Source: a bacterium
Lineage (GTDB): Bacteria; Pseudomonadota; Gammaproteobacteria; Burkholderiales; Burkholderiaceae_C
Length of the DNA stretch: 54,523 nucleotides
Direction: 5' to 3'
Assembly (NCBI GenBank): GCA_030824555.1
Contig: JAVBXK010000072.1
Location: 1-54,523, forward strand
Shown here: piece after piece, positions 4,855-22,948 of the stretch
Layout: every line of letters begins with the position of its first letter
Numbering within the stretch: the stretch's first letter is position 1
The notes under the pieces: model-generated
What the model saw: only the letters and a program-made list of their open reading frames with translations
What the model was told of the DNA's origin: nothing
Database searches by the model: none
Position numbers and translations under genes: made by a program

Positions 4855-4871
4855 TTTAAGCTTGCCCTAAG
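4855..4871 (+). promoter_or_regulatory. Putative PmrA/QseB-type box upstream of the QseB-like gene
   Basis: TTTAAG-CTTGC-CCTAAG: two six-base half-sites as a direct repeat with 5 bp between them. This matches the layout of the known PmrA/QseB box (YTTAAK-N5-YTTAAK). It ends 34 bp before the ATG at 4906, so it would suit autoregulation of the two-component operon. Similar 17-bp elements occur at 9440, 9477, 16932, 22899 and 22932. Confidence 0.6.
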
Positions 4872-4905
4872 ACAGGTGCGCTACCGTTCCTGCAGGAGAA
4901 AAACC

Positions 4906-5574
4906 ATGCGGGTGTTATTGGCTGAAGACGACGATTTATTGGGCTCTGGTTTGCGCGCAGGTTTGCGCCAGCAGGGCTTTCAGGTGGACTGGGTACGTGA
5001 CGGCGTGGCCGCTGAAAACGAGTTGCTGACGGGGGCCTATCTGGCCGCCGTGCTGGACCTGGGCCTGCCCCGCCAGGATGGCATGGACGTGCTGGCCAAG
5101 GTACGGGCGCGCAAGATCGTCACCCCCGTTCTGGTGTTGACCGCACGCGATGCCGTGCCCGATCGCATCCAGGGCCTGGATGCCGGGGCTGACGACTACC
5201 TGGTCAAACCCATCGACTTGCACGAGCTGGCTGCGCGCTTGCGCGCGCTGGTGCGCCGTTCGCATGGACAAACCCAGAATGCACTGGTGGCGGGTGGCCT
5301 TGAGCTGGATCCGCTGGCGCATCAGGTGAAGTGGGATGGCAACGTGCTGGACATCGTCGGGCGCGAATACGAGCTGCTGCATGTGCTGATGCGCAACGCA
5401 GGGCGGGTGTTGTCACGCGCCCAGATCGAGCAGCATTTGTATGAGTGGGGGCAAGAAGTGGCCAGCAACGCCATCGAGGTGCACATCCACCATCTGCGGC
5501 GAAAACTGCCCCCCAACACCATCGAAACCGTGCGAGGAGTGGGTTACGTGGTGCACAAAGGCGTTGCATCGTGA
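4906..5574 (+). CDS. QseB/PmrA-like response regulator
   Basis: A 222-residue OmpR-class transcription factor. The receiver domain has MRVLLAEDDDLLGSGL, acceptor Asp in VLDLGLPRQDGMD, LTARD and ADDYLVKPIDL. The C-terminal winged helix has VLSRAQIEQHLYEWGQEV and NAIEVHIHHLRRKLP, a signature of the QseB/PmrA/BasR branch. The start is the ATG at 4906, preceded by CAGGAG; the frame runs open upstream but has no conserved sequence there. Its stop overlaps the GTG of the kinase gene. A matching 17-bp box sits 34 bp upstream, suggesting autoregulation, and the same box recurs upstream of several redox operons in this window. Whether to call it QseB or PmrA cannot be settled from sequence alone. Confidence 0.92.
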   Translation: MRVLLAEDDDLLGSGLRAGLRQQGFQVDWVRDGVAAENELLTGAYLAAVLDLGLPRQDGMDVLAKVRARKIVTPVLVLTARDAVPDRIQGLDAGADDYLVKPIDLHELAARLRALVRRSHGQTQNALVAGGLELDPLAHQVKWDGNVLDIVGREYELLHVLMRNAGRVLSRAQIEQHLYEWGQEVASNAIEVHIHHLRRKLPPNTIETVRGVGYVVHKGVAS

Positions 5575-7058
5575 GCACTGTTCAACCCGGCCATGGCGGT
5601 CAAGCTGCTGGCAGCACCGTGCCGGTTGCTGCAACGGTCCGCCGTGCCCAGTCTCTGCAGGCGAGGCTGATGTGGACGGTGCTGGGCCTGGTGTTCGTGG
5701 TGTGGTCGGTGGCTGCTGTGGCCACCTGGCACGACACCGAACACGAAGTGGGCGAGTTGCTGGATGCGCACCTGTCTCAGGCGGCAGCGTTGCTGGTCAG
5801 CCAGCCCCTGGATGAACTGAGCCGCATCGATCTGCCGGAGACGCCCACGCTGCACGAGTACCAGCCCAAGGTGGTGTTGCAGGTGTGGCACGAGGGCACG
5901 CTGGTGGTGCGCTCTGCCAAGGCCCCGATGAAACCGTTGACGGCACCCAACCAGCGCGGGTTTATCCAGGTGGTGGTTGACGGTGTTGGCTGGCGTGTGT
6001 TCAGCGCACAGGGCCAGGACGAGCACGTGGTGGTGCACGTGGCCGAGCAGGACCAAGCCCGTCAGGACGTGGTGCTCGCCAGCATGCGCAGTGTCATCTG
6101 GCCCATGGCGGTGGCGTTGCCGTTTCTGGCGTTTGGGGTGTGGGTGGCGGTCAGGCATGCGCTCAAGCCGCTCAGCGAGCTGGGCTACCAGGTGTCCCAC
6201 CGCAAACCCGATGCATCCGAACCCTTGGCTGACAACGGCGTGCCGCGCGAGGTGCTGCCGCTGGTGGATGCGCTCAATCGCCTGTTCGGGCGCATTGCCA
6301 TGCTGATCGAGTCCGAACGCCGTTTCACGGCCGATGCCGCGCATGAGTTGCGCACGCCCCTTGCCGGCATCCGTATGCAGGCGCAGGTGGCGCAGGGTGC
6401 AGACGACGTGGCCGAGCGCAACGATGCGCTGGCCGCCACGCTTCAGGGTTGTGACCGGGCTGCACGCCTGGTAGACCAGTTGCTGCAACTGGCCAGGCTG
6501 GAAAGCCAGGCCGATGTGACCGGCCACCGTGCTCACGTGCCCACGTGGGTGCGCACGGTGGCGGCTGACCTGGCCCCAGTGGCTGCCAAGCGTGGCCAGC
6601 AGGTGAAAACCAGTTGCCGCGAGACGGCTGCCCCCGCAGATACCTTCGCTGAAAACGTGATGCGTGTGGGCAATGGGGTGGGTACTGCGTGGTATGCCCC
6701 CGCAGGCGCTGACTGGTGCCCTGTGCCAGAAGGTTTGTTGGCCATCCTGCTTCGCAACCTGCTGGACAACGCACTGCGTTACAGCCCGTCGGGGGCTGTG
6801 GTAAAGGTGGACTGCGGCGTGTTGCCCGAAGGGCGGGGCACCCTTACCGTGGAAGACAGTGGCCCGGGTATGGCGCCTGACGAACTCAAGCGGCTGGGCG
6901 AGCGATTCTTCAGGGTGGTGGGCACCAATCAGCCTGGCAGTGGTTTGGGTTGGTCCATCGTGACCCGCATCGCACGCCTGTACGGCCTGTCGCTGACGGC
7001 CACCCGCAGCCCTGAACTGGGTGGCCTGAGGGTGACCGTATCATGGGAGCCGATTTGA
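5571..7058 (+). CDS. QseC/PmrB-like sensor histidine kinase
   Basis: A 495-residue inner-membrane sensor kinase starting at the GTG that overlaps the regulator stop (GTGA). The first membrane helix (LMWTVLGLVFVVWSVAAVA) is followed by a periplasmic domain of about 135 residues. A second helix (VIWPMAVALPFLAFGVWVAV) comes next, then the phosphoacceptor box FTADAAHELRTPLAGIRMQ. The ATPase domain has RNLLDNALRYSP, DSGPGM and GSGLGWSIVTRIA. The periplasmic domain fits the 2CSK-type N-terminal sensor common in QseC-like kinases. A short stretch between the H box and N box (ENVMRVGNGVGTAWYAPAG) is longer than usual. It pairs with the QseB-like regulator; the stimulus is unknown. Confidence 0.92.
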   Translation: MSTVQPGHGGQAAGSTVPVAATVRRAQSLQARLMWTVLGLVFVVWSVAAVATWHDTEHEVGELLDAHLSQAAALLVSQPLDELSRIDLPETPTLHEYQPKVVLQVWHEGTLVVRSAKAPMKPLTAPNQRGFIQVVVDGVGWRVFSAQGQDEHVVVHVAEQDQARQDVVLASMRSVIWPMAVALPFLAFGVWVAVRHALKPLSELGYQVSHRKPDASEPLADNGVPREVLPLVDALNRLFGRIAMLIESERRFTADAAHELRTPLAGIRMQAQVAQGADDVAERNDALAATLQGCDRAARLVDQLLQLARLESQADVTGHRAHVPTWVRTVAADLAPVAAKRGQQVKTSCRETAAPADTFAENVMRVGNGVGTAWYAPAGADWCPVPEGLLAILLRNLLDNALRYSPSGAVVKVDCGVLPEGRGTLTVEDSGPGMAPDELKRLGERFFRVVGTNQPGSGLGWSIVTRIARLYGLSLTATRSPELGGLRVTVSWEPI

Positions 7059-7077
7059 ATTTTTAAGGCCATTCCAC

Positions 7078-8340
7078 ATGAAATCGTTCAAGCGCCTGGC
7101 TTTTTTGCGGATTGCCACGGTCACTGTCACGTTGTCGGCGTTGTCCACGCCGGTGGCCTGGTACATCTCGCGTGAAAATGCTGAACAGCAGGTGGTGGAG
7201 TTTGCACAAGAGGAGGCGCAACGCATCCTGGACCACTCCCACGCCATCGATCTGGCGGGGCCTGCTGCCCCGCAGCACGCAGCGCGGGCGGTTACCGTGC
7301 TGGTGGGTGGTTTGTTTGATATTGCAGAAATTTACAACGCCAGCGGGGTCAAGCTGGCCGAGGAAATGACGCCAGTCGGGCATGAACTGGAGCCCCTGTT
7401 GCCCAAGCATGGGCGGCCTGGCTACAAAAAATCTTTCTACGAAAGCCTGAAGGTGAGTCAGGACCGCTGGGTGATGCGGGTGATGGTGCCCTTGAAGCCG
7501 ATACCGGGTGGTGCCATCTCCGGGTATTTTGAAGGGGTGCGACTCATTCCCGAATGGCAGCGCGACCACATCCAGTCCGATGCCCTGGTGGTGGCGTTGA
7601 TGGTGTGTCTGGCATCGCTGATGTGCGGCGCGGTCATCTACCCGGTGGTCATTCACCTGTCCAGCGAGAACGAGCGGCGGGCGCAGCAGGTGCTGGAGTC
7701 GCACATTGCCATGATGGATGCCCTGGGCCGTGCCATTGCCAAACGCGACTCGGACACAGGCACGCACAACTACCGTGTGGCCTGGATTGCCGCCACGCTG
7801 GGTGAGGCGTTGGGCCTGAAAGGGGCCGACATGCAGTCACTGATCGCGGGCAGTTTTTTGCACGATGTGGGCAAAATCGGCATCCCCGATGGGATACTGC
7901 TCAAACCCGGTCGACTGGACGCCGACGAAATGGCCATCATGCGCACGCACGTCGAGCAGGGCCAGGAAATCGTGCACGGTGCGGGCTGGCTGGAGGGTGC
8001 CGCCGATGTGGTGGCCAGCCACCACGAAAAATGGGATGGCTCGGGCTACCCCAGGCAACTGGCGGCTGAGGCCATTCCGCTGTCGGCGCGCATTTTTGCG
8101 GTAGCCGACGTGTACGACGCCCTCAGCTCCAAGCGACCTTACAAGCCACCGATGCCGTTCGAGCAGGTGATGACCATTCTGCAAGAGGGGCGCGGCACCC
8201 ACTTCGACCCCACCGTACTGGCCTGCTTCGAGTCCATGGCACTGGCTGTACGCGACCGCATCGAAAGCCTGGATGAGGCCGGCATCAAACGCCTGATGGC
8301 AGACATGATCGAACGCCATTTCGACGCCATGACCGCCTGA
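7078..8340 (+). CDS. HD-GYP domain cyclic-di-GMP phosphodiesterase, membrane-bound
   Basis: A 420-residue protein with an N-terminal membrane helix, an extracytoplasmic sensor region of about 135 residues, and a second helix near 165-190 (DALVVALMVCLASLMCGAVIYP). The C-terminal HD-GYP domain has FLHDVGKIGIPDGIL (HD pair and conserved DxGKIGIPD), THVEQGQEI, SHHEKWDGSGYP and ADVYDALSSKRPYK. All expected metal-binding residues appear present, so an active phosphodiesterase degrading c-di-GMP is likely. It starts 19 bp after the QseC-like kinase stop and may share its transcript, which would link that system to second-messenger turnover. A hairpin follows the stop codon. Confidence 0.93.
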   Translation: MKSFKRLAFLRIATVTVTLSALSTPVAWYISRENAEQQVVEFAQEEAQRILDHSHAIDLAGPAAPQHAARAVTVLVGGLFDIAEIYNASGVKLAEEMTPVGHELEPLLPKHGRPGYKKSFYESLKVSQDRWVMRVMVPLKPIPGGAISGYFEGVRLIPEWQRDHIQSDALVVALMVCLASLMCGAVIYPVVIHLSSENERRAQQVLESHIAMMDALGRAIAKRDSDTGTHNYRVAWIAATLGEALGLKGADMQSLIAGSFLHDVGKIGIPDGILLKPGRLDADEMAIMRTHVEQGQEIVHGAGWLEGAADVVASHHEKWDGSGYPRQLAAEAIPLSARIFAVADVYDALSSKRPYKPPMPFEQVMTILQEGRGTHFDPTVLACFESMALAVRDRIESLDEAGIKRLMADMIERHFDAMTA

Positions 8341-8402: not shown

Positions 8403-9020
8403 TCAGATGATGGAGTTGGAGAAGCGCGGTTGGGCGAAGCCAAGTGCCATGCGTGACATCAGGCCGTCCTTGATGACGTAGTGGTGCCCCAAGGCTGCTG
8501 CCACGTGAACACCGATCAGCCAGTAGCCCAGCTGGCCAACCACTTCATGCAGTTCCTTGATGTCGTGGGCAAATGCTTTGTTCGGCCCCATCAGTGCAGG
8601 CAGTTCCAGTCCGAAGAAGGGAATGGGTTTGCCCGCTGCGCTCAATGCCAGCCAGCCCGCCAGCGGCATCAGCAGCATGAAGCCGTACAGCGCCAGGTGG
8701 CCCATGGTGGCCATGCGGTGTGCCCACGTCTGTGCACTGCTGGCTGCGGTCTCCACTGGTTTGGGGCTGTTCCAACGGGCAGCCAGGCGAAGCACCACCA
8801 TCAGCAACACGCCCATGCCGAGCATGAAGTGAAGGGCTTTCATGAAATCACGCATCTCGGTGCCTTTTGCAAACAACACACGCAACTCGATGCTGGCAAA
8901 CACGGCCACCATCAGCAGTGCCATGAACCAGTGCACTGCCACCAGTGCGGTGCTGTAGCGAAATGGAGGTGGGGCAGCGGTGGTTCGACCTGGGTGTGTG
9001 GCGCTGAATGTGGTGGTCAT
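8403..9020 (-). CDS. Cytochrome b561-type membrane protein
   Basis: A 205-residue four-helix cytochrome b of the CybB/b561 superfamily. It has conserved heme-ligand histidines in the helices: ALVAVHWFMALLM, KALHFMLGMGVLL, MGHLALYGFMLLMPLAGW and GVHVAAALGHHYVIKDG. Such proteins move electrons between the quinone pool and periplasmic partners. The start codon overlaps the stop of the upstream PepSY gene by 4 bp, so the two form an operon. That operon is divergent from the DHC/SHP cluster, with two PmrA-like boxes in the shared control region. Confidence 0.92.
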   Translation of the reverse strand: MTTTFSATHPGRTTAAPPPFRYSTALVAVHWFMALLMVAVFASIELRVLFAKGTEMRDFMKALHFMLGMGVLLMVVLRLAARWNSPKPVETAASSAQTWAHRMATMGHLALYGFMLLMPLAGWLALSAAGKPIPFFGLELPALMGPNKAFAHDIKELHEVVGQLGYWLIGVHVAAALGHHYVIKDGLMSRMALGFAQPRFSNSII

Positions 9021-9415
9021 GGACGGACTCCTGAAGGGTTTGAAGTGGATGGATTGGGTGCCGGGATGCGTGTGATGCGTATCTGTGCCCCCGTGACCGG
9101 GTGCATGTACGCCTCCACCACATCACCTTGTGGATCGACGGCATAAAACTCGTGGCAGTTGCCTTTGGAAACCTTGAACTTCACCAGCGCGTAGTCATCG
9201 GCTTTGAACAGCTTACGGGCCTGCCGTTCGCTCATCCATTGGCTGCGTGGGGTTTGCGTGCACACCACTTTTTCCTGCGGGGTGCTGGCATGGGCGATGC
9301 CCGTGCTGACCGTGCTCAGACTGACTGCCAGGCACAAGCAGGCCAGAGCGGCGTGCGGCGTGTGGGCGGCGGGTCGGGCACCTGCTGGTGGCGGTTGACG
9401 GTGTGTTGAGTTCAT
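9017..9415 (-). CDS. Periplasmic PepSY-like protein
   Basis: A small secreted protein of about 132 residues. It has a Lys/Arg-poor leader, an Ala/Leu signal segment (LACLCLAVSLSTVSTGIAHA) and one short domain with SERQARKLFKADDYALVKFK and DVVEAYMHPVTGAQIRI. This fits a PepSY-like fold (helix then beta hairpin with DP..G..V). Single PepSY domains often act as periplasmic regulators or inhibitors near two-component and cytochrome genes; that role here is inference. The ATG at 9415 is chosen over 9439 because it begins the signal peptide. It is translationally coupled to the cytochrome b561 gene by a 4-bp overlap. Confidence 0.75.
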   Translation of the reverse strand: MNSTHRQPPPAGARPAAHTPHAALACLCLAVSLSTVSTGIAHASTPQEKVVCTQTPRSQWMSERQARKLFKADDYALVKFKVSKGNCHEFYAVDPQGDVVEAYMHPVTGAQIRITRIPAPNPSTSNPSGVRP

Positions 9416-9439
9416 GCGTCCAGACTGTAGTGACGCCAC

Positions 9440-9456
9440 CTGAAATTTTGCTTAAC
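9440..9456 (-). promoter_or_regulatory. Putative PmrA/QseB-type box facing the PepSY-cytochrome b561 operon
   Basis: On the minus strand the sequence reads GTTAAG-CAAAA-TTTCAG, a direct repeat of half-sites with 5-bp spacing. It is 24 bp upstream of the PepSY start at 9415. A plus-oriented box (9477-9493) lies 20 bp away, so the intergenic region has one box for each direction. Confidence 0.5.
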
Positions 9457-9476: not shown

Positions 9477-9493
9477 TTTAAGGAAAGCTTCAT
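9477..9493 (+). promoter_or_regulatory. Putative PmrA/QseB-type box facing DHC/SHP cluster 1
   Basis: TTTAAG-GAAAG-CTTCAT: the same half-site layout and spacing as the box upstream of the QseB-like gene. It precedes the diheme cytochrome gene that starts at 9608. Confidence 0.55.
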
Positions 9494-9607
9494 TTCGGAC
9501 GCTCAAGCTGGCGACCTCTCGTGCGCTGCTCCCCGTCTGTGCCGCGCATGAATCCACCCATGCACCGCTGCGCGTGTGCAGTCACTTCGAACAAACAGGA
9601 CCTGACC

Positions 9608-10159
9608 ATGAAGCCAGCACACCAAACTCCCCAGTCGAAGACATTCGGGATGCGTCAGATTCGGCATGGGCTGCTTGTTGCACTGGCCGGATGGGTCTTG
9701 ACCCAAAGTGCTTTGGCTGACAACGACGGTGGCTCTCGCCGTGGGGGTCAGGGCAGCAGTGGACAAATGACGTTGTCGCAAATGAATGCGAAGTACCGCG
9801 AAGAATGTGCCGCCTGCCACATGGCCTACCCCCCGGGTTTTTTGCCTGCTGTGTCATGGAAGCACCAGATGAACACACTTGAAAAACACTACGGCGCGGA
9901 TGCCGGTCTGGATGCTGCAACCGTGCAATCCATTGATCGATGGCTGCAAGCGGAAGGCGGCACCTACAAGCGCGCGGGTGAAGTGACCGCCGACCACCGC
10001 ATCAGCTCATCGGCCTGGTTCGAGCGCAAGCACCGTGAAATTGCCGCAGCCACCTGGAAGCGGGTCGGCATCAAGAGCAAAGCCAACTGTGTGGCCTGTC
10101 ACACCCAGGCAGAGCAAGGCAATTTTGACGAAAAAGCCGTGCGCATTCCCAAGCTGTGA
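9608..10159 (+). CDS. Diheme cytochrome c (DHC), cluster 1
   Basis: A 183-residue secreted cytochrome with a signal peptide (LLVALAGWVLTQSALA) and two heme-binding motifs: CAACH at residues 67-71, followed by MAYPPGFLP, and CVACH at 161-165, followed by TQAEQGNFDE. This pattern matches the diheme cytochrome c (DHC) family, known partner of SHP and a membrane cytochrome b in Rhodobacter and Shewanella. The start at 9608 gives a compact leader; the frame is open further upstream without conserved sequence. The SHP gene follows 34 bp later. A second copy lies at 17525-18124. Confidence 0.9.
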   Translation: MKPAHQTPQSKTFGMRQIRHGLLVALAGWVLTQSALADNDGGSRRGGQGSSGQMTLSQMNAKYREECAACHMAYPPGFLPAVSWKHQMNTLEKHYGADAGLDAATVQSIDRWLQAEGGTYKRAGEVTADHRISSSAWFERKHREIAAATWKRVGIKSKANCVACHTQAEQGNFDEKAVRIPKL

Positions 10160-10193
10160 GGCTGACTTTGTATCGACACATGGAACCCACGTT

Positions 10194-10631
10194 ATGAAAA
10201 AACCCCTTCAACTCCGAACGACTTTGGTAGGCGCTTTGCTCGCTTTGATGACCACACTGCCGCCGATGGCGCTGGCTGCCGACAGCGTCGCCAGTCAAAC
10301 GCAAGCCTGGTCCGAGCAGGCCAAATCCACACAGGCCGGATTCACGCCTTCCGCAGAGCGTGGCAAGGCCCTGTACTTCAAAACCTTCAAGGTCTCGGCC
10401 GAGTTTCCGAATTGCGCGGCTTGCCACACAGACGATGCCCGCAAAGAAGGCAAACACGCCATCACCGGCAAGAAGATCAGTGCCATGGCCCCTGCTGTCA
10501 CCGCAGACCGGTTCACCGATGCAGCCAAGACTGAAAAATGGTTCAGGCGCAATTGCAAAGAGGTCACCGGCGCCGAGTGCAGCGCAGCCGACAAGGCTGA
10601 TTTCGTGGCGTACCTGTCCAGCCTGAAATGA
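10194..10631 (+). CDS. SHP-like monoheme cytochrome c (DUF1924), cluster 1
   Basis: A 145-residue periplasmic protein with a signal peptide ending near ALA-A (residues 27-29) and one heme motif CAACH at 74-78. The conserved C-terminal block WFRRNCKEVTGAECS (117-130) has two further cysteines and an Asn. This is the hallmark of SHP (sphaeroides heme protein, DUF1924), in which an Asn is a labile axial heme ligand and the heme can bind small molecules such as O2 or NO. The electron donor is probably the adjacent DHC. Its stop overlaps the start of the cytochrome b gene (ATGA). Confidence 0.9.
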   Translation: MKKPLQLRTTLVGALLALMTTLPPMALAADSVASQTQAWSEQAKSTQAGFTPSAERGKALYFKTFKVSAEFPNCAACHTDDARKEGKHAITGKKISAMAPAVTADRFTDAAKTEKWFRRNCKEVTGAECSAADKADFVAYLSSLK

Positions 10632-11332
10632 GCCTCTACGCAAGGCGCCATCCTGATGGTCGTGCCACCGTCAGGGTGTGGGACCTGGCACAGCGTGTCG
10701 GGCACTGGGCGTTGGTTGGCAGCTTTGCGACCGCTTGGGTGTTGTCTGAAGGTGAGCGACTTCGCCAATGGCACGTGATGGCCGGCCTGGTGGCGGTAGG
10801 CGTTGCTCTGTGGCGACTGGGTTGGGGTTTGTTTGGCTCGCGCCACGCGCTGTTTTCCGACTTCGTGCGCGGTCCCGGCGCGGTGGCCCGCTACCTGCGG
10901 TCTCTGCTGGACAGGCCCGAACATCACCTGGGGCACAACCCGGCGGGCGGGTGGGCCATTGTGCTGCTGTTGACCCTGACACTGGCCACCGGCATCACCG
11001 GTTGGTTGGGGCAAAACGAGTTGTCGAGTTGGGCTGAAAAACTGCACGAGCCCTTGGCCAAGGCGTGGATGCTTGTGGTGGCGGTCCATGTCATGGGCGT
11101 GGTCACCGGCAGCATGCTGCACGCTGAAAACCTGGTGGTTGCCATGTTGCATGGCCGCAAACCCGCAGCCTCGGTATTCGGCTCACCCCGCGACGCCCAA
11201 CCTGTTCAAACAGCACTTGTCCCGGTGAGCGCCCGTGCACAGGATGTGATCGGGCTGCTCACACTCGGGGCCACAGTGGCCATCATCGTCTGGACGGGCC
11301 TGGTCGGCTTGCCGCGCTGGTTGGATCTGTAA
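10628..11332 (+). CDS. Cytochrome b (b561-type), cluster 1
   Basis: A 234-residue integral membrane cytochrome b with heme-ligating His in RVWDLAQRVGHWALVG, RQWHVMAGLVAVGVALWRL, LHEPLAKAWMLVVAVHVMG and a terminal helix. It carries the FVRGPGAVARYLRSLL loop typical of the Ni,Fe-hydrogenase/DHC-associated cytochrome b561 group. It is translationally coupled to SHP (4-bp overlap) and would feed electrons from quinol to DHC and then SHP. The paralogue at 18143-18970 completes the second cluster. Confidence 0.92.
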   Translation: MSLYARRHPDGRATVRVWDLAQRVGHWALVGSFATAWVLSEGERLRQWHVMAGLVAVGVALWRLGWGLFGSRHALFSDFVRGPGAVARYLRSLLDRPEHHLGHNPAGGWAIVLLLTLTLATGITGWLGQNELSSWAEKLHEPLAKAWMLVVAVHVMGVVTGSMLHAENLVVAMLHGRKPAASVFGSPRDAQPVQTALVPVSARAQDVIGLLTLGATVAIIVWTGLVGLPRWLDL

Positions 11333-13504: not shown

Positions 13505-13554
13505 GGTGTGCAGTGAGATGGGCGGTGGGGGAGGCCGTGGAGTGACGGTGCGGT

Positions 13555-14040: not shown

Positions 14041-16536
14041 TCACGTCCCACGCGCCAAACTGTGTTTGAGCAGCTGCAGCGGGACCACCGTGCACAGCCC
14101 TGCGGCCATGGCAAGTGACCATTGCCCCACCGTCAACGCCACAAACCCGAAGCCCTGGGCCAGCATGGGCACGGTGCTGATGGCGGTCAGCGCCAGCAAG
14201 GTGCCGCCCAGCACCCACAGGCTGACGGGGGTCATGCCTGCCCACAGGCTGCGCCAGGCGGTCTGGCGCGAGCGGCTGGGCAGGATGAGCGCCGCATTGG
14301 CTGCCACCAGCACCACGAACGCCATGTTGCTGCTGACCGCCGTGGCCAGCCCGGTGTCGAGCAGCCAGACGTAGACACCCAGCACCGCAGCCGTGATCAG
14401 CCCGCCTTGCAGCAAACTCAGGCCCACCAGCTCGCGCGAGATCAACGGCGCTGACTTGCTGCGGGGTGGTTCGGTCATCAGTGTGCTGCGGCCGTTTTCG
14501 GCTTCGAACACCAGCGAGCAGGTGGGGTCGATCACCAGCTCCAGAAAGGCAATGTGCAGCGGGGCCAGCACCATCGGCAAGCCAAACAGCACGGGCAGCA
14601 TGGCCAGACCGATGATGGGCAGGTGCACCGCCAGCGTGTACACCATGGCCTGTCGCAGGTTGGCAAACGTGCGCCGCCCACGGTGGATGGCCTGCACGAT
14701 GGTGGCAAAGTCGTCGTTCAGCAGCACCAGTGCGGCGGCTTCGCGGGCCACATCGGTCCCGCGCTGCCCCATGGCAATGCCGATGTGGGCGGCTTTCAGG
14801 GCGGGCGCGTCGTTCACGCCGTCGCCGGTCATGGCCACCACTTCGCCACGGGCTTTCAGTGCCTCCACCAGCGCAAATTTTTGTTCAGGTTTGACGCGGG
14901 CGAACACGTTCACGCTGGCCACCCGGGCGGCCAGCTCTGCCGGGGGCAGACGGAACAGGTCCGCCCCAGTGAGCACATTGCGGGCATCGATACCCGCTTG
15001 GCGCCCAATGGCCGCAGCGGTGTGCGGGTGGTCGCCGGTGATCATCACCACCCGGATGCCCGCTGCCTGGCATTGCTGAATGGCCTCAGGTACCTCGGGG
15101 CGCAGCGGGTCGGCCAGGCCAACCATGCCCACCCATTCGAAATTGAAATCGTGCTGGTTATCGGGCCAGGGCTGGGCCACCGGGTGGCTGGCTTTGGCCA
15201 CGGCCAGCACGCGCAGGCCCTGGTCGGCCAGGCGGGCAGCGTGCGCGGCTACCTGCTGGCGTTGTGCATCGGGCAAATGGCACAGGTCGGCCACAGCTTC
15301 CGGGGCACCCTTGGCAGCCACCTCGTCGAGCGTGCCGTCTGCGCTGCGCCACACGTGGCTCATGGCCAGCAGGCCCGATGACAGTTCGTACTCGCGCGCC
15401 AGCGTCCATTCGGGGTGCAGGTGTTCGGTGCCGGTCAGCTGCTTGCCTGCCATCTGGTGAAAGGCCTGCTCCATGGGGTCGTGCGGGTCGGTCTCGCTGG
15501 CCAACACGGCGTATTCCAGCAGCTGGTGGAACGGTTCTGGCAGGGTGGACAGCGGCAGGTCAGGGGTGTCCAGCGCGTCGTCACCGGCCACCAGGCAGGC
15601 CACGGCCATGCGGTTCTGGGTCAGGGTGCCGGTTTTGTCGACACACAGCACCGTGGTTTGCCCGAGCGTTTCGATGGCGTTGAGCCGCCGCGTCAGCACC
15701 TGCTGTGCGGCCAGCCGCCGGGCGGCCAGCGCCAGGAACACGATCATGATCACCGGCAGCTCCTGTGGCAGCACGCCCATGGCCAGGGTGATGCCTGCCA
15801 GCAAGGCATCCAGCAACCCCCCCCGCATCAGCCAGAACAGGCCCATCAGCACCACACACAGCGCCGAACCGATGATCACCAGTTGCCGGGTGAGCCGGGC
15901 CATTTCTTCGCGCAGCGGCGATGCCTGCAACGCAATGTCGCCCAGCGACTGGCCAATGTGCCCCAGCGCCGTGGCCTGCCCGATGGCGGTGACGCGCATC
16001 ACACCCTGGCCACTGACCACCAGGGTGCCTGCAAACACTTGACCGCCTGGGGCCTGTTTGGCCACGGGCTCGGATTCGCCCGTCAGCATGGATTCGTCGG
16101 TGGCCAGTTCGTGCGCTTGCAGCAGTTCGCCGTCAGCGGGGATGCGGTCGCCCTCGGCCAGCATCAACACGTCTTCGCGCACCACCTCGCGGCCAGGTAT
16201 GCGCACGGCCTGGCCGTCGCGCAGGGCTTTGGCGCGGGGGCTGGAGAGGTCGCGCAGGGCTTCCAGTGCGTTGTCGGTGCGCCGCTCCTGCAGCAGCGTC
16301 ACGCCCATGATGATGAACACGAACCCCAGCAGCACCAGCGCCTCGTGGGCATCGCCCAGCGCCAGGTAAATGGCCCCCGCACCGATCAGCAGCAAAAACA
16401 TGGGTTCGCGCACCACCTCCCACGCCATGGCCAGCAGGCTGCGCCGCTGGCTGGCGGCCAGCTCGTTGGGGCCTTCGGCCACGTGGCGTTGGGCGGCTGC
16501 CGCAGAAGTGAGTCCGTCGGGGAGGGGGGTGTTCAT
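14041..16536 (-). CDS. Cation-transporting P-type ATPase
   Basis: An approximately 831-residue P-type ATPase pump. An N-terminal cytoplasmic segment (LTSAAAAQRHVAEGPNELA) is followed by membrane helices, the actuator loop with LTGESEPVAK, and a TM4 motif GVLPQELPVIMIVFLAL. The phosphorylation site is CVDKTGTLTQNRM, with MITGDHPHTA and the hinge MTGDGVNDAPALKAAHIGIA. A six-helix C-terminal domain ends the protein. PQELP in TM4 resembles P2-type (Ca2+/Mg2+/Na+-like) pumps of uncertain ion; heavy-metal CPx motifs are absent. The frame extends to an ATG at 16602, but the extra 22 residues look unconserved. It lies alone upstream of the PepSY-PhoPQ operon with 111 bp between. Confidence 0.9.
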   Translation of the reverse strand: MNTPLPDGLTSAAAAQRHVAEGPNELAASQRRSLLAMAWEVVREPMFLLLIGAGAIYLALGDAHEALVLLGFVFIIMGVTLLQERRTDNALEALRDLSSPRAKALRDGQAVRIPGREVVREDVLMLAEGDRIPADGELLQAHELATDESMLTGESEPVAKQAPGGQVFAGTLVVSGQGVMRVTAIGQATALGHIGQSLGDIALQASPLREEMARLTRQLVIIGSALCVVLMGLFWLMRGGLLDALLAGITLAMGVLPQELPVIMIVFLALAARRLAAQQVLTRRLNAIETLGQTTVLCVDKTGTLTQNRMAVACLVAGDDALDTPDLPLSTLPEPFHQLLEYAVLASETDPHDPMEQAFHQMAGKQLTGTEHLHPEWTLAREYELSSGLLAMSHVWRSADGTLDEVAAKGAPEAVADLCHLPDAQRQQVAAHAARLADQGLRVLAVAKASHPVAQPWPDNQHDFNFEWVGMVGLADPLRPEVPEAIQQCQAAGIRVVMITGDHPHTAAAIGRQAGIDARNVLTGADLFRLPPAELAARVASVNVFARVKPEQKFALVEALKARGEVVAMTGDGVNDAPALKAAHIGIAMGQRGTDVAREAAALVLLNDDFATIVQAIHRGRRTFANLRQAMVYTLAVHLPIIGLAMLPVLFGLPMVLAPLHIAFLELVIDPTCSLVFEAENGRSTLMTEPPRSKSAPLISRELVGLSLLQGGLITAAVLGVYVWLLDTGLATAVSSNMAFVVLVAANAALILPSRSRQTAWRSLWAGMTPVSLWVLGGTLLALTAISTVPMLAQGFGFVALTVGQWSLAMAAGLCTVVPLQLLKHSLARGT

Positions 16537-16693
16537 GTGAGCCAGTTTGCGCGTTTGTGAGGTGGGGGGTGAAGACAGATTCTGAGGTGCCGACATGAAC
16601 ATCGGGTGAACAGCGGCTTCATATGGTGTTCAGTGCCTGCGGCGCACCATGCATGGCGGCCTGAATTCGGGCTGTGTCACCAGGAGCCCATTC

Positions 16694-16858
16694 ATGAACC
16701 CCCACATCAAATCATTCGTTGCAACCGTCCTCATGGCTGTGTTGCCCACGCTGCTGGTGGTGGCCACCACGGCTTTCGTCAGCATCCCGTATGTACTGGG
16801 TCACCACCCCGGCGAGCTGCCAGGGCAGGGCGTTACGGCCGTTTCTCACTTGACCTGA
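16694..16858 (+). CDS. Small single-helix membrane protein, unknown
   Basis: A 54-residue open frame beginning MNPHIKSFVATVLMAVLPT, with one hydrophobic helix (about residues 8-33) and a polar tail VLGHHPGELPGQGV. CAGGAG lies 8 bp upstream of the ATG, which supports real translation. It resembles small one-helix proteins found near cytochrome genes, but no family is recognised. It precedes SHP/DHC cluster 2 by 147 bp, with a PmrA-like box between. Confidence 0.55.
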   Translation: MNPHIKSFVATVLMAVLPTLLVVATTAFVSIPYVLGHHPGELPGQGVTAVSHLT

Positions 16859-16920
16859 CAGGCCGGGCGTTTTTCGGCTTTGTGCCTGCCCCGCCCAGTT
16901 GCTGCGAACCTGAACGCTAC

Positions 16921-16948
16921 CTGAACAAACGCTTAAGCCTTTGTTCAA
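16921..16948. promoter_or_regulatory. Putative symmetric PmrA/QseB-type site upstream of SHP/DHC cluster 2
   Basis: CTGAAC-AAACG-CTTAAG-CCTTT-GTTCAA. The central palindromic CTTAAG forms a 17-bp box with the right half-site on the plus strand (16932-16948). It forms another with the left half-site on the minus strand (16921-16937). It lies 57 bp ahead of the SHP start at 17006. Confidence 0.55.
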
Positions 16949-17005
16949 GTCGGTTTGCCAACAATGCCTTCACACCTTGAACACCGCCCCAGAAGGAGCC
17001 CCGCC

Positions 17006-17467
17006 ATGCAATCTGTTGCATCCAACCTGCCCCTGCCGTCTTCGCGTGCCAAGCCGTCTCGCCATTTGACTGCTGTCGTGCGGGGCATGGCCGTTGCCCT
17101 GTGCATGGTGCAGGGCAGTTTGGCCCTGGCTGCAGACACGTCTGCAGCCGAACAGCTGCAACGCTGGACGGCCGAAGCCAAAGTCCCCGGCAACGCCGAC
17201 AGGGGCAAAGCGTTTTTCAACGCCAAACACGGTGGCGAGTGGAGCTGTGCCTCGTGCCACAACGTGCCGCCCACCACAGAAGGCAAACACACCACCACGG
17301 GCAAGCCCATTGCACCGCTGGCCCCCGGCTTCAACCCCAAGGCCTTTACCGATACGGCCAAGGTGGACAAGTGGTTTCGCCGCAACTGCAAGGACGTGCT
17401 CAGCCGCGAATGCACGGCCCCCGAAAAGGCCGACGTGATGGCATACCTGCTGTCCCTCAAACCCTGA
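17006..17467 (+). CDS. SHP-like monoheme cytochrome c (DUF1924), cluster 2
   Basis: A 153-residue paralogue of the cluster 1 SHP. It has a signal peptide through about residue 42 (MVQGSLALA), a heme motif CASCH at 81-85, and the diagnostic WFRRNCKDVLSRECT at 123-137 with the conserved Asn and Cys pair. GAAGGAG stands 8 bp before the ATG. Here SHP precedes DHC, the reverse of cluster 1. The two SHPs differ markedly in the heme loop (HGGEWSCASCHNV versus SAEFPNCAACHTD), so this is an old or separately acquired copy rather than a recent duplication. Confidence 0.9.
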   Translation: MQSVASNLPLPSSRAKPSRHLTAVVRGMAVALCMVQGSLALAADTSAAEQLQRWTAEAKVPGNADRGKAFFNAKHGGEWSCASCHNVPPTTEGKHTTTGKPIAPLAPGFNPKAFTDTAKVDKWFRRNCKDVLSRECTAPEKADVMAYLLSLKP

Positions 17468-17524
17468 ACGCCAACGACACGGTCACCACCCTTGACATCA
17501 ACACCGATACCGGAAGACAACACC

Positions 17525-18124
17525 ATGCACCGCTTGCCCTTCCTCGCCGCAGCGCGCCTGCGCCGCACAGCAGCCCACACACTGGCCGGCGTGTTTGCCA
17601 GCTCGTTTGTCCAGATATTTGCCCGCACCCTGGCAGGCGCATCGCTGGCCATGGCAGCCCTGATGGCTGTGGCCCCAGCCCACGCCGACAGCCGCAACAT
17701 GCTGCCGCGCAACGAACTGGCCGCCTACGCACAGGAATGCGCGGCCTGCCACATGGCGTATGCCCCTGGTTTTTTGCCCGCCGCATCGTGGAGCCACATG
17801 ATGAAAAACCTGGACAAGCACTACGGCACCGACGCGTCGCTGGATGCTGCCGCTGTGCAGCAAATTGCCACCTGGCTGTCTGCCAACGCCAGCACCTACA
17901 AGCGCGTGGCCGAGGCCCCGCCTGAAGACCGCATGACCCGTTCGGCCTGGTTCGAGCGCAAGCACCGCAAGATCGACTCGCTGGTGTGGCAGCACGCATC
18001 CGTCAAGAGCGCGTCCAACTGCATGGCCTGCCACACGCGTGCCGACAAAGGCAATTACGACGACGACAGCGTGACCTATCCGCAAGGGCTGCCCGCCCGC
18101 TTTCGCACCGGTTGGAACGACTGA
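17525..18124 (+). CDS. Diheme cytochrome c (DHC), cluster 2
   Basis: A 199-residue secreted diheme cytochrome with an unusually long leader (about 54 residues, hydrophobic at 36-54, ending PAHA). Heme motifs are CAACH at 72-76, followed by MAYAPGFLPAASW, and CMACH at 166-170. SAWFERKHRKIDSL matches SAWFERKHREIAAA in the cluster 1 copy. It starts 57 bp after SHP and ends 18 bp before the cytochrome b gene. Confidence 0.9.
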   Translation: MHRLPFLAAARLRRTAAHTLAGVFASSFVQIFARTLAGASLAMAALMAVAPAHADSRNMLPRNELAAYAQECAACHMAYAPGFLPAASWSHMMKNLDKHYGTDASLDAAAVQQIATWLSANASTYKRVAEAPPEDRMTRSAWFERKHRKIDSLVWQHASVKSASNCMACHTRADKGNYDDDSVTYPQGLPARFRTGWND

Positions 18125-18142
18125 ACCCAGGCGCCACACACC

Positions 18143-18970
18143 ATGACCAACCCATCCTGCTCCCCCACTATGCATACCACTCCATCCTTGAGCGCCGCAG
18201 CCGGCCCTTCAGTGGGCGCCTCGGCAGGTGCCAGATCCGCTTCCCCCGCATCTCCCGCAACCCCTTCACGGGCCAGCACCGCAGCGCCATCGCGCCGCTT
18301 GATCGACGCACCCACCCGAGCCTTTCACTGGTTGTTTGCGCTGTGTTTTCTGGGGGCCTACCTCAGCGCGGACGGCGAACGCTGGCGGCTGCTGCACGTG
18401 GTACTGGGCTACAGCATGGCCGGTTTGCTGGCGTTTCGCGTGGGCTATGGGCTGGTGGGGCCGAAACAGGTTCGGCTGAGCCTGCTGGGGTCGAAGCTGG
18501 CAGGCGGCCGGGCCTGGCTGCACAGCCTGTGGCGCGCACGCAGGCCGGGTGATGTGAACTGGCGGCAAGGCCAGAACCTGTTCATGGCACTGGCCGTGGT
18601 GGCCCTGCTGGCGCTGGTGGTGCCCATCACGCTGACGGGCTATGCCTCGTTCAACGAATGGGGCGGCGACTGGCTGGGTGAGATCCACGAAGCCGTGGGC
18701 GAAGCCTTCCTGTGGGTGGTGGTGGGGCACCTGGCTGCCATCGCGGGTTTGAGCTGGTTGCGACGCAAAAACGTGGCTGCACCCATGTTCACCGGGCGCA
18801 CCGAGGGCCGTGGCCCCGATGTGGCCCAACACAACCACACCTGGCTGGCCTGGCTGCTGTGTGCTGCCGTGTTGGGCTACGTGGCGTGGGAATGGCAGCA
18901 AGCCCCCAACGGGCTGGTCAGTCTGAGCAGCCAGCGGTTGGGCACTTCAGCTCATGACGATGAAGATTGA
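18143..18970 (+). CDS. Cytochrome b (b561-type), cluster 2
   Basis: A 275-residue membrane cytochrome b. It carries an N-terminal extension of about 48 residues rich in Ala/Ser/Pro before the first helix (RLIDAPTRAFHWLFALCFL), so a later start such as the ATG at 18170 is possible. Histidine-bearing helices include LLHVVLGYSMAGLLAFRVGYGL, split here by function, and IHEAVGEAFLWVVVGHLAAI. It ends SLSSQRLGTSAHDDED. The rubredoxin gene follows 67 bp later and is likely part of the same operon. Confidence 0.9.
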   Translation: MTNPSCSPTMHTTPSLSAAAGPSVGASAGARSASPASPATPSRASTAAPSRRLIDAPTRAFHWLFALCFLGAYLSADGERWRLLHVVLGYSMAGLLAFRVGYGLVGPKQVRLSLLGSKLAGGRAWLHSLWRARRPGDVNWRQGQNLFMALAVVALLALVVPITLTGYASFNEWGGDWLGEIHEAVGEAFLWVVVGHLAAIAGLSWLRRKNVAAPMFTGRTEGRGPDVAQHNHTWLAWLLCAAVLGYVAWEWQQAPNGLVSLSSQRLGTSAHDDED

Positions 18971-19676: not shown

Positions 19677-20048
19677 TCATGGTTTGGGGCGCTGAAGCAC
19701 TGCCTTCGCCAGGGCAGCCATCTTTTCTGTCACTCTCGCCATGGCCGACTGGTACACCACGCTGTCTTCGCGTTTGTCTACCGCCATCACCATGACGATC
19801 AACACATCGTCTTGCACGCCATACACCAGCCGGTAGCCTTGTTTGTTGAGTTTGATTTTGTAATGCCCTGCCAGTGCACCGTGAAGGGCTGCACCCGGTA
19901 CATGGGGGTTGTCCAGCCGCTTTTTCAGCAACTTGCGCAACGGCTCTTTCACCGAACCGTCCAGCTTTTGCCACTCTGCCCACGCGCTGGGCACAAACTG
20001 CAAGCGGTACTTGTGTTTGCGCGCTGGCTGGGGCGGCTCAGATGGCAT
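19677..20048 (-). CDS. RelE-family toxin of a type II toxin-antitoxin pair
   Basis: A 123-residue RelE/ParE-superfamily protein: KYRLQFVPSAWAEWQKLD, VKEPLRKLLKKRLDNPHVP, GHYKIKLNKQGYRLVYGVQD and VMAVDKREDSVVYQ. The GxYKIKL..GYRLVY core is typical of RelE mRNA interferases. The ATG at 20048 is preferred to an upstream TTG; it overlaps the antitoxin stop by 11 bp, giving coupled translation. The C-terminus extends about 25 residues beyond the usual RelE end (SAMARVTEKMAALAKAVLQ) as a helix. Likely cleaves translated mRNA when free of its antitoxin. Confidence 0.92.
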   Translation of the reverse strand: MPSEPPQPARKHKYRLQFVPSAWAEWQKLDGSVKEPLRKLLKKRLDNPHVPGAALHGALAGHYKIKLNKQGYRLVYGVQDDVLIVMVMAVDKREDSVVYQSAMARVTEKMAALAKAVLQRPKP

Positions 20049-20289
20049 CAATGTCCACCTCAATCGCCTGTGCCCGCTCGCCCATGCGTGCCAGCACCGT
20101 GCGGCCCAGTTCCTGGTCAGACAGCTCTTCGAGCATGGCCTCGAACAAAGCGGGTTCGATCATGTAGAACGCCGCCTTGTTGTGGTTCAGCACGGCCACC
20201 GGGCGGCGCTTGGCTTCACGCAACACAGCAGCCGGGTTCTTCTTGAACTCGGACATGCTGATCATCACATCGGCGTAAATGGCTTCCAT
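20038..20289 (-). CDS. Antitoxin, Phd/YefM or StbD-like
   Basis: An 83-residue antitoxin with the DNA-binding N-terminal fold ADVMISMSEFKKNPAAVL, VLNHNKAAFYMIEPALFEAM and an acidic C-terminal helix that should wrap the RelE-like toxin. AAGGAG lies 6 bp before the ATG. An AT-rich stretch (CATAATAA, 20312-20319) upstream could hold the -10 element, where the complex would autoregulate. The upstream neighbour is the DarG/HsdS remnant on the same strand. Confidence 0.9.
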   Translation of the reverse strand: MEAIYADVMISMSEFKKNPAAVLREAKRRPVAVLNHNKAAFYMIEPALFEAMLEELSDQELGRTVLARMGERAQAIEVDIDAI

Positions 20290-20898: not shown

Positions 20899-22857
20899 TC
20901 ACATGGCGCGGGGTGGGGCCCACACCCGGCTGATCGAGGCCAGGAATGCGTCGGCGGGTTCGTACCCCACCACCTTGCCTGCGTGGCTGCCCTGCGCATC
21001 GAAAAACACGATGCCAGGTGGGCCAAACAGTGCAAAGCGTTTGAGCAGCGCTTTGTCTTCAGCGGTGTTGCGGGTGACATCGGCCTGCAGCAGGCGGACG
21101 CCTTTCAGCTGCTGCACCACGCGGTCGTTGCTGAAGGTATTCAGCTCGAACTCTTTGCAGGCCACGCACCAGTCGGCGTAAAAGTCGAGCATGACGCGCT
21201 GCCCGTTGTTGGCTGCAGCGGCCACGGCAGCGTCGAGTGCGGCGGTGGAGTCGATGCGCTCGAACGTCAGCCCATGGGCCTGCACGGCTGTGCCGTTGGT
21301 GGCTGCACTGGCTCTCAAATGGGCCAGGGGTTGCATCACCGATTGGCCGGCGGAAGCGGCTCCTACCAGTTCCATGGACCCCAGGGCCAACGCCAGCATG
21401 CCGATCCAGCGCCCAACCAAGGGTGGCGGCTGGTGATGGGTGCCGATGGCATGGCCCAGCGCGCCCAGGCCCATGGCTGCCAGCAGCAGCCACATGCCCC
21501 AGGCCAGCATGTGCAGTTGCACCGACAGCACGGGCGACACCATCCAGATGGCCACGCCCAGCAGCATCATGCCGAACACTTGCTTGACCTTTTCCATCCA
21601 CGCACCGGCTTTGGGCAACAGGTGACCGGCCGATGCGCCCACCAGCAGCAGGGGGCCACCCATGCTGAGTGCCATGACGAACAGGGCCGAGCCGCCCAGC
21701 CACACGTCACCCGTCTGGCTGATGTACACCAATGCACCCGCCAGTGGCGCGGCCACACAAGGCCCGCACACCAGGGCCGACACGCCGCCCATGCAGAACA
21801 CACCACCCAGCGAGCCGCCGCTGAAGCGGTTGGACCAGCCCGATGCGCTGTTTTGAATGAACGAGGGCATTTGCAGCTCATACCAGCCGAACATCGACAG
21901 CGAAAACGCCACCAGCATGAGCGCAAACCCACCCAGTACCCACGCGTTTTGCAGGGCGGCTGACAAACCTTCGCCCGCCAGGCCTGCGGCCACGCCGAAG
22001 GCCGCGTACACCACGGCCATGCCCACGGTGTAGCTGGCGGCCAGTGCAATGCCCCGCTTGCGGCTGACGGGCTGGGTCTGCCCCACGATGATGGATGACA
22101 GGATGGGGATCATGGGCAGCACGCAGGGCGTGAGCGACAGCAGGAAGCCCGCCAGGGCGAACGCTGCCAGCGTGGTCAGCAGGTTGCCGCCACTCAGAAA
22201 GCGGGTGAACTGGTCGTCGGCACCACCGGTTTCGGGTGTGGTGGGGGTGACCGTGCCAGCGTGGGCCACGCCCACCTTGGGTGTGACGGTGGTGGTGGCC
22301 ACCCACGGTGTGGCACCGGCGGGCAGCTCGGCCACAGCGGTGACCTCGTCTTGGGTGGCCCCAAAAGCGCGCAAACGCACGCGCCACAGCTGATCTGCCG
22401 GCGGGTAGCACAAGCCCGCGTCGGCACACCCTTGCCAGGCGGTGCGCACGAACACTTCCGATGCGCCTTGGGCGGGTTGCACGGTCACGGCCAGGGTGCC
22501 TTCGTACATCTGGACTTCTTTGCCGAAGTTCGGGTCGAACTTGGCAATGGACGGTGGCAGATCGAGCTTGTCAGGCCACGCCATGGGGCCGCTTTCGGGC
22601 TGGATGGCCAGTTTGTCGCGGTACAGGTGGTAACCGGGGGCAATCTGCCACGTCCAGGTCACGCCCTTGGGGGTGACGGTGGCACTGGCGGCAAACGCTT
22701 GCTCGGGTGGCAGGAAGTCTGTTGCCGCCCAGCCATGGCCGCTGAACAACAGCAGCCACGTCAGCGTCAGCAGGCTGAACAGCCTGTGCAGGCCGTGTGG
22801 GGTGGCGGGTGTGGCAGGGGGGGTGGTGTGCATGAGGAGGTTCCGTCTGAAAAACAT
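20899..22857 (-). CDS. dsbD: Thiol:disulfide interchange protein DsbD
   Basis: A 652-residue transmembrane reductant conduit that passes electrons from cytoplasmic thioredoxin to periplasmic partners. It has a signal peptide near residues 25-45 and an N-terminal immunoglobulin-like domain with QGCADAGLCYPP (Cys 144 and 150). Eight membrane helices follow, with the redox Cys in LSLTPCVLPMIPILSS and VCGPCVAAPLAG. The C-terminal thioredoxin domain has DFYADWCVACKEFE. All six catalytic cysteines are present. The start may be 22857 or 22833 (8 residues shorter). It is divergent from the tlpA-apbE operon, with two opposed PmrA-like boxes in between, so it probably reduces the neighbouring TlpA-like protein or supports cytochrome maturation. 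Confidence 0.95.
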   Translation of the reverse strand: MFFRRNLLMHTTPPATPATPHGLHRLFSLLTLTWLLLFSGHGWAATDFLPPEQAFAASATVTPKGVTWTWQIAPGYHLYRDKLAIQPESGPMAWPDKLDLPPSIAKFDPNFGKEVQMYEGTLAVTVQPAQGASEVFVRTAWQGCADAGLCYPPADQLWRVRLRAFGATQDEVTAVAELPAGATPWVATTTVTPKVGVAHAGTVTPTTPETGGADDQFTRFLSGGNLLTTLAAFALAGFLLSLTPCVLPMIPILSSIIVGQTQPVSRKRGIALAASYTVGMAVVYAAFGVAAGLAGEGLSAALQNAWVLGGFALMLVAFSLSMFGWYELQMPSFIQNSASGWSNRFSGGSLGGVFCMGGVSALVCGPCVAAPLAGALVYISQTGDVWLGGSALFVMALSMGGPLLLVGASAGHLLPKAGAWMEKVKQVFGMMLLGVAIWMVSPVLSVQLHMLAWGMWLLLAAMGLGALGHAIGTHHQPPPLVGRWIGMLALALGSMELVGAASAGQSVMQPLAHLRASAATNGTAVQAHGLTFERIDSTAALDAAVAAAANNGQRVMLDFYADWCVACKEFELNTFSNDRVVQQLKGVRLLQADVTRNTAEDKALLKRFALFGPPGIVFFDAQGSHAGKVVGYEPADAFLASISRVWAPPRAM

Positions 22858-22898
22858 TCACGCCAAGGTGAGGGATGGACGGATCGTGCCGCCCCAGC

Positions 22899-22915
22899 CT
22901 GAAGTTCAGCTTAAG
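22899..22915 (-). promoter_or_regulatory. Putative PmrA/QseB-type box facing dsbD
   Basis: On the minus strand it reads CTTAAG-CTGAA-CTTCAG, 41 bp upstream of the dsbD start at 22857. Half-sites and 5-bp spacing are the same as in the box facing the tlpA operon 16 bp away. Confidence 0.6.
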
Positions 22916-22931
22916 CAGCCACCCTGTTTGT

Positions 22932-22948
22932 CTTAAGGGAGTCTTCAG
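22932..22948 (+). promoter_or_regulatory. Putative PmrA/QseB-type box facing the tlpA-apbE operon
   Basis: CTTAAG-GGAGT-CTTCAG, identical in both half-sites to the oppositely oriented box at 22899-22915. The tlpA-like start is at 23018. Confidence 0.6.

Follow-up and report, generated by a model that had tools for sequence, protein, structure and literature searches.

The 54,523-nt contig JAVBXK010000072.1 (assembly GCA_030824555.1, positions 1 to 54,523, forward strand; hereafter the window), from a bacterium of the Burkholderiaceae_C within the Burkholderiales, likely holds the core of a regulon run by a two-component system of the PmrA/QseB family, which would activate five promoters. In the mechanism we propose, the phosphorylated QseB-like regulator would bind YTTAAG-N5-YTTMAG as a head-to-tail dimer, the box would stand in for the -35 element, with a -10 hexamer starting 10 bases past it, and the regulator would recruit RNA polymerase. 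The activated promoters would be those of qseBC itself, a PepSY-cytochrome b561 pair, a DHC-SHP-cytochrome b cluster (cluster 1), dsbD and tlpA-DUF3570-apbE, with eptA, elsewhere in the genome, behind the same composite promoter. We infer binding by the QseB-like regulator, activation rather than repression and an electron route with two arms, one in which quinol would reduce DHC and SHP by way of the b-type cytochromes and one in which DsbD would supply TlpA and the flavinylated DUF3570 protein. The regulon is very probably real, and its disulfide/flavin link seems specific to this lineage.

The regulator gene (4906-5574, +) encodes a 222-aa protein with Pfam Response_reg and Trans_reg_C domains. 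It is followed by the open frame of a QseC-like sensor kinase (5445-7058, +; 2CSK_N, HisKA, HATPase_c), whose true start is probably internal, and, behind qseC, by a gene for an HD-domain protein (HD_5; 7078-8340, +). Against the NCBIfam equivalogs for QseBC (NF007663, NF007664) and PmrAB (NF007928, NF008025), the regulator scored 247.8 bits for QseB (cut-off 345) and 235.4 for PmrA (cut-off 330), and the kinase 285.4 for QseC (cut-off 475) and 172.6 for the PmrB-side model (cut-off 314), all below the cut-offs. The closest solved chain to the regulator is BasR (8jo2/4s04). Judged by its best models and closest solved relatives, the regulator belongs, in the broad sense, to the QseB/PmrA branch of OmpR-type regulators. 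Its recognition-helix region reads NAIEVHIHHLRRK, compared with NTLEVHIHNLREK in PmrA, NTIEVFVGRLRKK in the SK1-type regulator of the window described below and RSMDNRVTRLRKK in a regulator at 12-965; the window pair at 12-2293 is OmpR/EnvZ-like. Binding of the boxes by the QseB-like regulator is predicted from synteny, its autoregulatory position and the similarity of this helix.

An initial annotation of the window had listed six PmrA/QseB-type boxes in intergenic DNA, and their coordinates and strands were confirmed in the sequence, as were the identities it gave to the genes behind them, which Pfam supports. The predicted qseBC promoter carries TTTAAG-CTTGC-CCTAAG (4855-4871, +) and a -10 TACCGT at 4882-4887. 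On the minus strand, GTTAAG-CAAAA-TTTCAG (9440-9456) with TACAGT at 9429-9424 forms the predicted promoter of the PepSY-cytochrome b561 genes (8403-9439, -), that is, a PepSY_2 protein (9017-9439, likely ATG at 9415) and a cytochrome b561 (8403-9020). TTTAAG-GAAAG-CTTCAT (9477-9493, +), with CAAGCT at 9504-9509, would serve cluster 1 (9521-11332, +), which encodes a DHC diheme cytochrome c (PF09626), SHP (DUF1924; PF09086) and a cytochrome b561 (PF01292). The divergent pair further downstream comprises CTTAAG-CTGAA-CTTCAG (22899-22915, -) with CACGAT at 22888-22883, the predicted promoter of dsbD (20899-22857, -), and CTTAAG-GGAGT-CTTCAG (22932-22948, +) with CTCAAT at 22959-22964, predicted to drive the genes for a TlpA-like thioredoxin (likely ATG at 23018), DUF3570, ApbE and a cytochrome c (22949-26962, +). 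The remaining box, CTTAAG-CCTTT-GTTCAA (16932-16948, +), with AACAAT at 16960-16965, precedes cluster 2 (16955-18970, +), which encodes SHP (DUF1924; likely ATG at 17006), DHC and a cytochrome b561; we read it as a promoter of the SK1 type. None of the sites lies within a Pfam-supported gene, given the likely ATGs at 4906, 9415 (-), 9608, 17006 and 23018.

The spacing of the half-sites is not a product of chance. Scanning the window at spacings 0-24 with a loose dyad pattern, one that does not match the site at 4855, gave six matches at spacing 5, three at 16, one each at 18 and 20, and none at any other spacing. BTTAAG-N5-BYTMAD has 11 matches in the 5.16-Mb genome, of which seven (two of them overlapping, at 16921 and 16932) fall inside the window, which makes up 1% of the genome; the reversed control has 20 genome-wide. 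The narrower BTTAAG-N5-BTTCAN has nine matches, six in the window (control, five), and exact YTTAAG-N5-YTTCAG occurs in the 5.16 Mb only at 22899 and 22932. Chance origin of the boxes was ruled out by the spacing and genome controls together with the shuffles described below. The initial annotation had not listed the overlapping minus-strand match at 16921 or its additional half-site at 16910, nor the phased -10 described below. The form of the PmrA/QseB box claimed there, in both half-sites and 5-bp gap, was borne out by the spacing scans and by comparison with PMC3973317, where the PmrA box is given as two head-to-tail hexamers (CTTAAT/CCTAAG or CTTAAG/NTTAAT) 5 bp apart. The window boxes likewise consist of head-to-tail CTTAAG-related hexamers with a 5-bp gap, that is, an 11-bp repeat.

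The same box recurs at related loci. From a search with the QseB-like regulator, the best 80 of at least 572 relatives were taken and 79 were scored, one at a contig edge being dropped; 58 of these 79 have qseBC behind SHP, DHC or cytochrome b genes within a single gene run. The matrix used to locate boxes drew on seven window sites and nothing else; two of these, 16921 and 16932, we later took to be non-functional or SK1-type. A match had to reach 11 bits and lie in the 350 bp ahead of the operon. At spacing 5, 54 of the 58 loci had a match. Spacing 4 gave 22 and each remaining spacing between 0 and 12 gave 3-12, while five shuffles gave 2-4. Raising the threshold to at least 14 bits left 45 of 58 at spacing 5 versus 0-5 at other spacings and 0-1 in shuffles. 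A spacing scan over the 80 loci (1.31 Mb) returned 56 matches at N5, 40 of them at an operon start; spacing 16 gave 13, and every remaining spacing between 0 and 20 gave 0-6. The variants found in relatives include CTTAAG-N5-CTTAAT and CTTAAG-N5-CCTAAG.

Aligning the loci on the box (n=61, namely 53 with redox genes and eight with qseB first) brought out a second block, the -10-like (T/C)ANNAT, at bases 27-32 counted from the box start: T or C at 27 in 47 loci, A28 in 57, A31 in 38 and T32 in 53. The -10 element had no part in locating these boxes, and its mean score in relatives was 5.1 at offset 0 and at most -3.8 at the remaining offsets from -8 to 11. No further conserved block was seen between box and -10 in the aligned relatives. 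In the window, the -10 at this phase ranks first among 64 offsets for the sites at 4855, 9440 and 9477, second at 22899, fifth at 22932 and third at 16932. At the minus-strand site 16921 it ranks 42nd, which ruled that site out as a promoter. The mean -10 score of the seven scored window sites was unmatched in 50,000 resamplings of window positions. The box ends 10 bases ahead of the -10 and would therefore cover the -35; it does so with the -10 at a constant distance in five window sites, of which 22932 is the weakest. Activating PmrA-type regulators usually sit over the -35 region of the promoter, and a box over the -35 at a constant distance from the -10 is thus the arrangement expected for an activator.

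Composite matrices (box plus -10) were built from 61 QseB-type and 23 SK1-type promoters of relatives; in leave-one-out assignment, none of the 61 and one of the 23 were misplaced. The five best QseB matches in the window were the sites at 4855, 9440, 9477, 22899 and 22932, with QseB/SK1 scores of 26.3/-6.3, 19.6/-2.6, 22.5/7.6, 23.9/0.4 and 20.5/-4.7, respectively, whereas 16932 scored 15.4/26.9. Since this last site scores so much higher as SK1 than as QseB, the six sites probably mix two regulators, and a single regulator for all six was rejected on the composite scores. The claim that one pair controls all the listed operons is partly supported: five promoters share a box and a phased -10, and 16932 probably belongs to the other regulator.

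The SK1-type system of the window (11364-14040, -) consists of a PepSY protein gene (13555-14040), a response regulator gene (12842-13504) and a sensor kinase gene (11364-12845), identified from Pfam and kinase motifs. The kinase carries SGRYWQ and RSRSLWD, variants of the SK1 signature, and the PepSY protein encoded next to the regulator appears to be the partner Orf1. Upstream of the PepSY gene lies one for a cation-transporting P-type ATPase (E1-E2, Cation_ATPase_N/C; 14041-16602, -). For comparison, we assembled 31 SK1 loci: 29 same-family loci with a PepSY match (150 genomes were searched, 32 others had a kinase match and 29 of those contributed), plus the same-genus loci L219 and L220. 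Sixteen of the 31 have a divergent SHP gene. TTAAG-Nk-TTMAG occurred at no k from 0 to 15 in these loci (the QseB box would be k=6). GTTCA-Nk-GTTCA faced the SK1 operon at k=6 in 14 loci and the other side in three, with one further occurrence (k=8). CTTCAG-N5-GTTCAD, read on the strand that points away from the PepSY gene, was exact in 9 of 31 loci and present with up to two mismatches in 23, against 0, 1, 0 and 4 at spacings 3, 4, 6 and 7; the opposite strand matched a consensus of SK1-type half-sites exactly in 6 of 31 loci and weakly in the others. The SK1-type promoter carries ANAAT one base further from the box than the QseB-type -10.

Within the window, the SK1 matrix places 16932 first (26.9), followed by 16617-16633 (+; 23.7), ahead of a 54-aa open frame (16694-16858) without a Pfam match, and 13978-13994 (-; 21.7), which predicts autoregulation of the PepSY-regulator-SK1 operon; elsewhere, scores reach at most 16.3. 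The minus-strand tandem GTTCAG-N5-GTTCAG at 16910-16926 has SK1-type half-sites and a composite score of only 6.3. The site at 16932 is CTTCAG-N5-GTTCAA apart from one base change, with AACAAT at the SK1 phase (28-33), and is probably best read as an SK1-type promoter. An SK1-type system with its own box is thus predicted to control the second SHP cluster separately. The same scan picked up similar 35-bp stretches at 45128, 45827 and 46181 (-), which suggest a repeated unit.

The two codes bear on three other ways of reading the boxes. That another regulator of the window, chiefly the SK1-type one (12842-13504), binds them all and controls everything is very improbable, even though this protein is also PmrA-like (223 bits against the NCBIfam PmrA model, cut-off 330) and the CTTCAG-N5-GTTCAN box of its relatives has one half-site type in common with the dsbD and tlpA boxes. 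The TTAAG repeat is absent from the 31 SK1 loci, 14 of which have the GTTCA one toward the SK1 operon, the composite matrices set the five window sites apart from SK1 by at least 14.9 bits, and the TTAAG boxes sit upstream of operons that contain qseBC. A dual role for 16932, in which both regulators would bind it and so link the two systems at cluster 2, has more in its favour, and we regard it as unlikely rather than remote: its first half-site, CTTAAG, is of the QseB type, its second, GTTCAA, and its -10 spacing of the SK1 type, its QseB score is the sixth best in the window and its QseB-phase -10 ranks near the top, yet a single base change from the SK1 consensus, with AACAAT at the SK1 phase, would be enough to account for it. 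A regulator that represses rather than activates has little probability. Polymerase could also be kept out by a box that covers the -35 region, but the constant distance to the -10, with no other conserved block between them, is what would be expected where the regulator replaces the -35.

Some results weigh against the regulon as proposed. Allowing at most one mismatch, YTTAAG-N5-YTTCAG shows no genome-wide enrichment (26 matches versus 28 for the reversed control), so the letters of the box alone are insufficient to define the regulon. Among the relatives, only 8 of 21 loci with qseB first have a box, and the locus counts are not independent, as the relatives share ancestry and their boxes were located with a window-trained matrix. 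The same-genus locus L223 has no site above 12 before qseB, and 22932 has a weak -10 (score 1.6). Because four matches to the pattern elsewhere in the own genome reach composite scores of 8.2 to 23.2, a score of 15-19 may be no more than background. One of these, at C6:12532 (8.2), has no -10 (score -7.5) and was discarded; another, at C6:24844 (18.6), is oriented against the neighbouring GST gene and was taken as chance; a third lies at C53:53203 (15.6). The fourth, at C105:73065 (23.2; the same site as L226 9966, -), stands before the gene of an uncharacterised protein that starts with MSWLKNWLGR and has no Pfam match. The rest of the adverse counts concern the dsbD and tlpA boxes. Across the order, 39 of the 43 other genomes with the DUF3570 family (among 399) provided 40 regions; the strict box occurs in one, and spacing 5 is not enriched. 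In 20 TlpA loci (14 with a DUF3570 match), the best site upstream of tlpA scored 13.1, and one of 15.9 lay inside tlpA. The same-family set comprised 60 DUF3570 regions, hand-chosen among the listed matches. They represent 51 of the 84 genomes that passed the cut-off (the own one counted), and exclude regions retrieved earlier as well as three from a distant subfamily. A tlpA gene is present in 51 of the regions, and only two composite sites above 14 face it (19.1 and 18.1). The half-sites of the former (L325) look SK1-like by eye, with scores of 19.1 for QseB versus 14.2 for SK1.

Wide conservation of the dsbD and tlpA boxes was rejected on these counts, and their scant recurrence in other DUF3570 operons speaks for their being remnants or chance, with the disulfide and flavin operons outside the regulon. 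We nevertheless hold that improbable: the two boxes are the sole exact matches to the strict pattern, they face both genes of a divergent promoter and they score high with the composite matrix. Only two sites above 20 were found in 573 kb of DUF3570 regions from other genomes, and one of them (L148 504, +; genome G122, of another family) scores 30.1, has a palindromic CTTAAG box and precedes cytochrome c-tlpA-DUF3570-apbE; in that genome, which is 86% complete, the best QseB relative found is only 46% identical. At another locus, L097, where QseBC lies beside apbE-DUF3570-tlpA, a 24.9 site faces a flavin oxidoreductase gene, not tlpA, and a weaker box faces tlpA. Either dsbD and tlpA joined the regulon in this lineage or their sites are non-functional; the former is probably the case, since the sites are the only exact matches in the genome, face both genes and carry -10s.

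The qseBC and PepSY-cytochrome promoters recur within the genus. An orthologue of the QseB-like regulator, at least 71% identical, is present in six of seven genomes, own included, and four of the five other same-genus neighbourhoods have a composite box before qseBC (L219, 18.3; L220, 16.1) or before an eptA-qseBC operon (L221, 23.3; L222, 20.7). All four neighbourhoods that have PepSY (L219, L220, L222 and L223) have a composite box there (20.7-23.2). Further composite sites in L222 lie before the HD gene relative (21.2) and, if that gene starts within its longest frame, at a PAP2 gene (24.1). Across the phylum, PepSY_2 was matched in 22 of 398 genomes, own included; of the 24 loci scanned, 17 have a cytochrome b561 match and eight a composite site above 12, six of which face PepSY (five distinct sites, 12.7-24.1). 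The recurrence in relatives that the initial annotation had looked to is therefore seen for the qseBC, SHP/DHC and PepSY-cytochrome boxes, and seldom for those of dsbD and tlpA.

The gene eptA is a classical PmrA target. In this genome, it lies on another contig (C119) behind the same composite promoter (score 20.9). In L221 (7774-10248) and L222 (6627-9054), eptA heads a QseBC-like operon behind the box. The orthologous regulator thus differs in its neighbours within the genus, and its main targets probably differ too. One orthologous regulator seems to serve eptA-qseBC in sister species and redox operons here.

The system resembles several known ones without coinciding with any. Like the PmrAB (BasRS) regulon, it combines CTTAAG-N5-CCTAAG boxes, in relatives such as L061, L064, L066, L072, L076 and L080, with a boxed eptA, both here and in the eptA-qseBC operon of two same-genus genomes; unlike it, several targets are periplasmic redox operons, the second half-site is often TTCAG and the regulator falls below the PmrA equivalog cut-off. 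With QseBC/PreAB of Salmonella and E. coli, it shares the best NCBIfam model for regulator and kinase, autoregulation and a cytochrome b561 target: PMC2653508 treats STM1252/53, which include a cytochrome b561, as known PmrA-regulated genes that Salmonella PreA (QseB) activates together with mdaB-ygiN. The window pair differs in scoring below the equivalog cut-offs, and SHP/DHC, DsbD and ApbE are not among the PreA targets described in the sections of that paper available to us. In the SHP operons described by Meyer, Kyndt and Cusanovich in 2010 (PMC2909971), SK2 is QseC-like, SK1 goes with Orf1 and the motifs SGVYWQ/RSRSLWD, and regulation of SHP by SK1 and SK2 is proposed. No binding sites for these regulators are given in the sections of that study consulted. 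Both of these common sensor types are present in the window, and here each has its own predicted box and promoter geometry, in one locus. The DsbD-DUF3570-ApbE flavinylation clusters described in 2021 (PMC8238504), as far as that account goes, have the same gene set, with a DUF3570 motif [S/T]GA[S/T]: the window has DsbD, a TlpA-like thioredoxin, a DUF3570 protein with one SGAS motif (a second was not seen by eye) and ApbE, here under a predicted PmrA/QseB-type promoter pair. No DUF4266 was found between tlpA and DUF3570, where the gap is 45 bp and the single frame tested (23379-23666) has no Pfam match.

The initial annotation overstated the novelty of shared redox control, as cytochrome b561 under PreA/QseB (PMC2653508) and a QseC-like kinase in SHP operons (PMC2909971) had already been published. 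For the box itself, its -10 phase, the split between the SK1 and SK2 codes and the link to ApbE/DUF3570, we found no prior description in the open-licence papers searched. The 2010 study (PMC2909971) presented SHP as unique among known c-type haem proteins in binding oxygen, with no settled function. With a regulator and a promoter code defined, experimenters know which mutant to study, and SHP may prove linked to electron transfer through disulfides and flavins. Moreover, single half-site bases and one base of -10 spacing seem to be what separates two neighbouring regulators of the same family.

The SK1 regulator matches the receiver domain named CarR (8gc6) with 125 bits, compared with 112 for the PhoP receiver (2pkx) and 104 for the BasS-partner receiver (3w9s). 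CarR is a Vibrio regulator linked to Ca2+, and the likeness to CarR-type regulators may extend to the cation-ATPase gene in the operon. More speculatively, and with somewhat less than even confidence, we suggest that the Burkholderiales PmrA/QseB lineage serves mainly as a master switch for reducing power in the periplasm. One redox or metal cue would switch on the haem (SHP/DHC/b561), thiol (DsbD/TlpA) and flavin (ApbE/DUF3570) routes along with lipid A modification by EptA, and the paralogous Ca2+-linked SK1 system would run a second SHP branch via its own box.

Two further features adjoin these operons. A chemoreceptor with a CZB zinc-binding domain is encoded directly upstream of the qseBC promoter (2338-4794), and frames for a ParE-like toxin and a Phd/YefM antitoxin (19677-20289, -) lie between SHP cluster 2 and dsbD.

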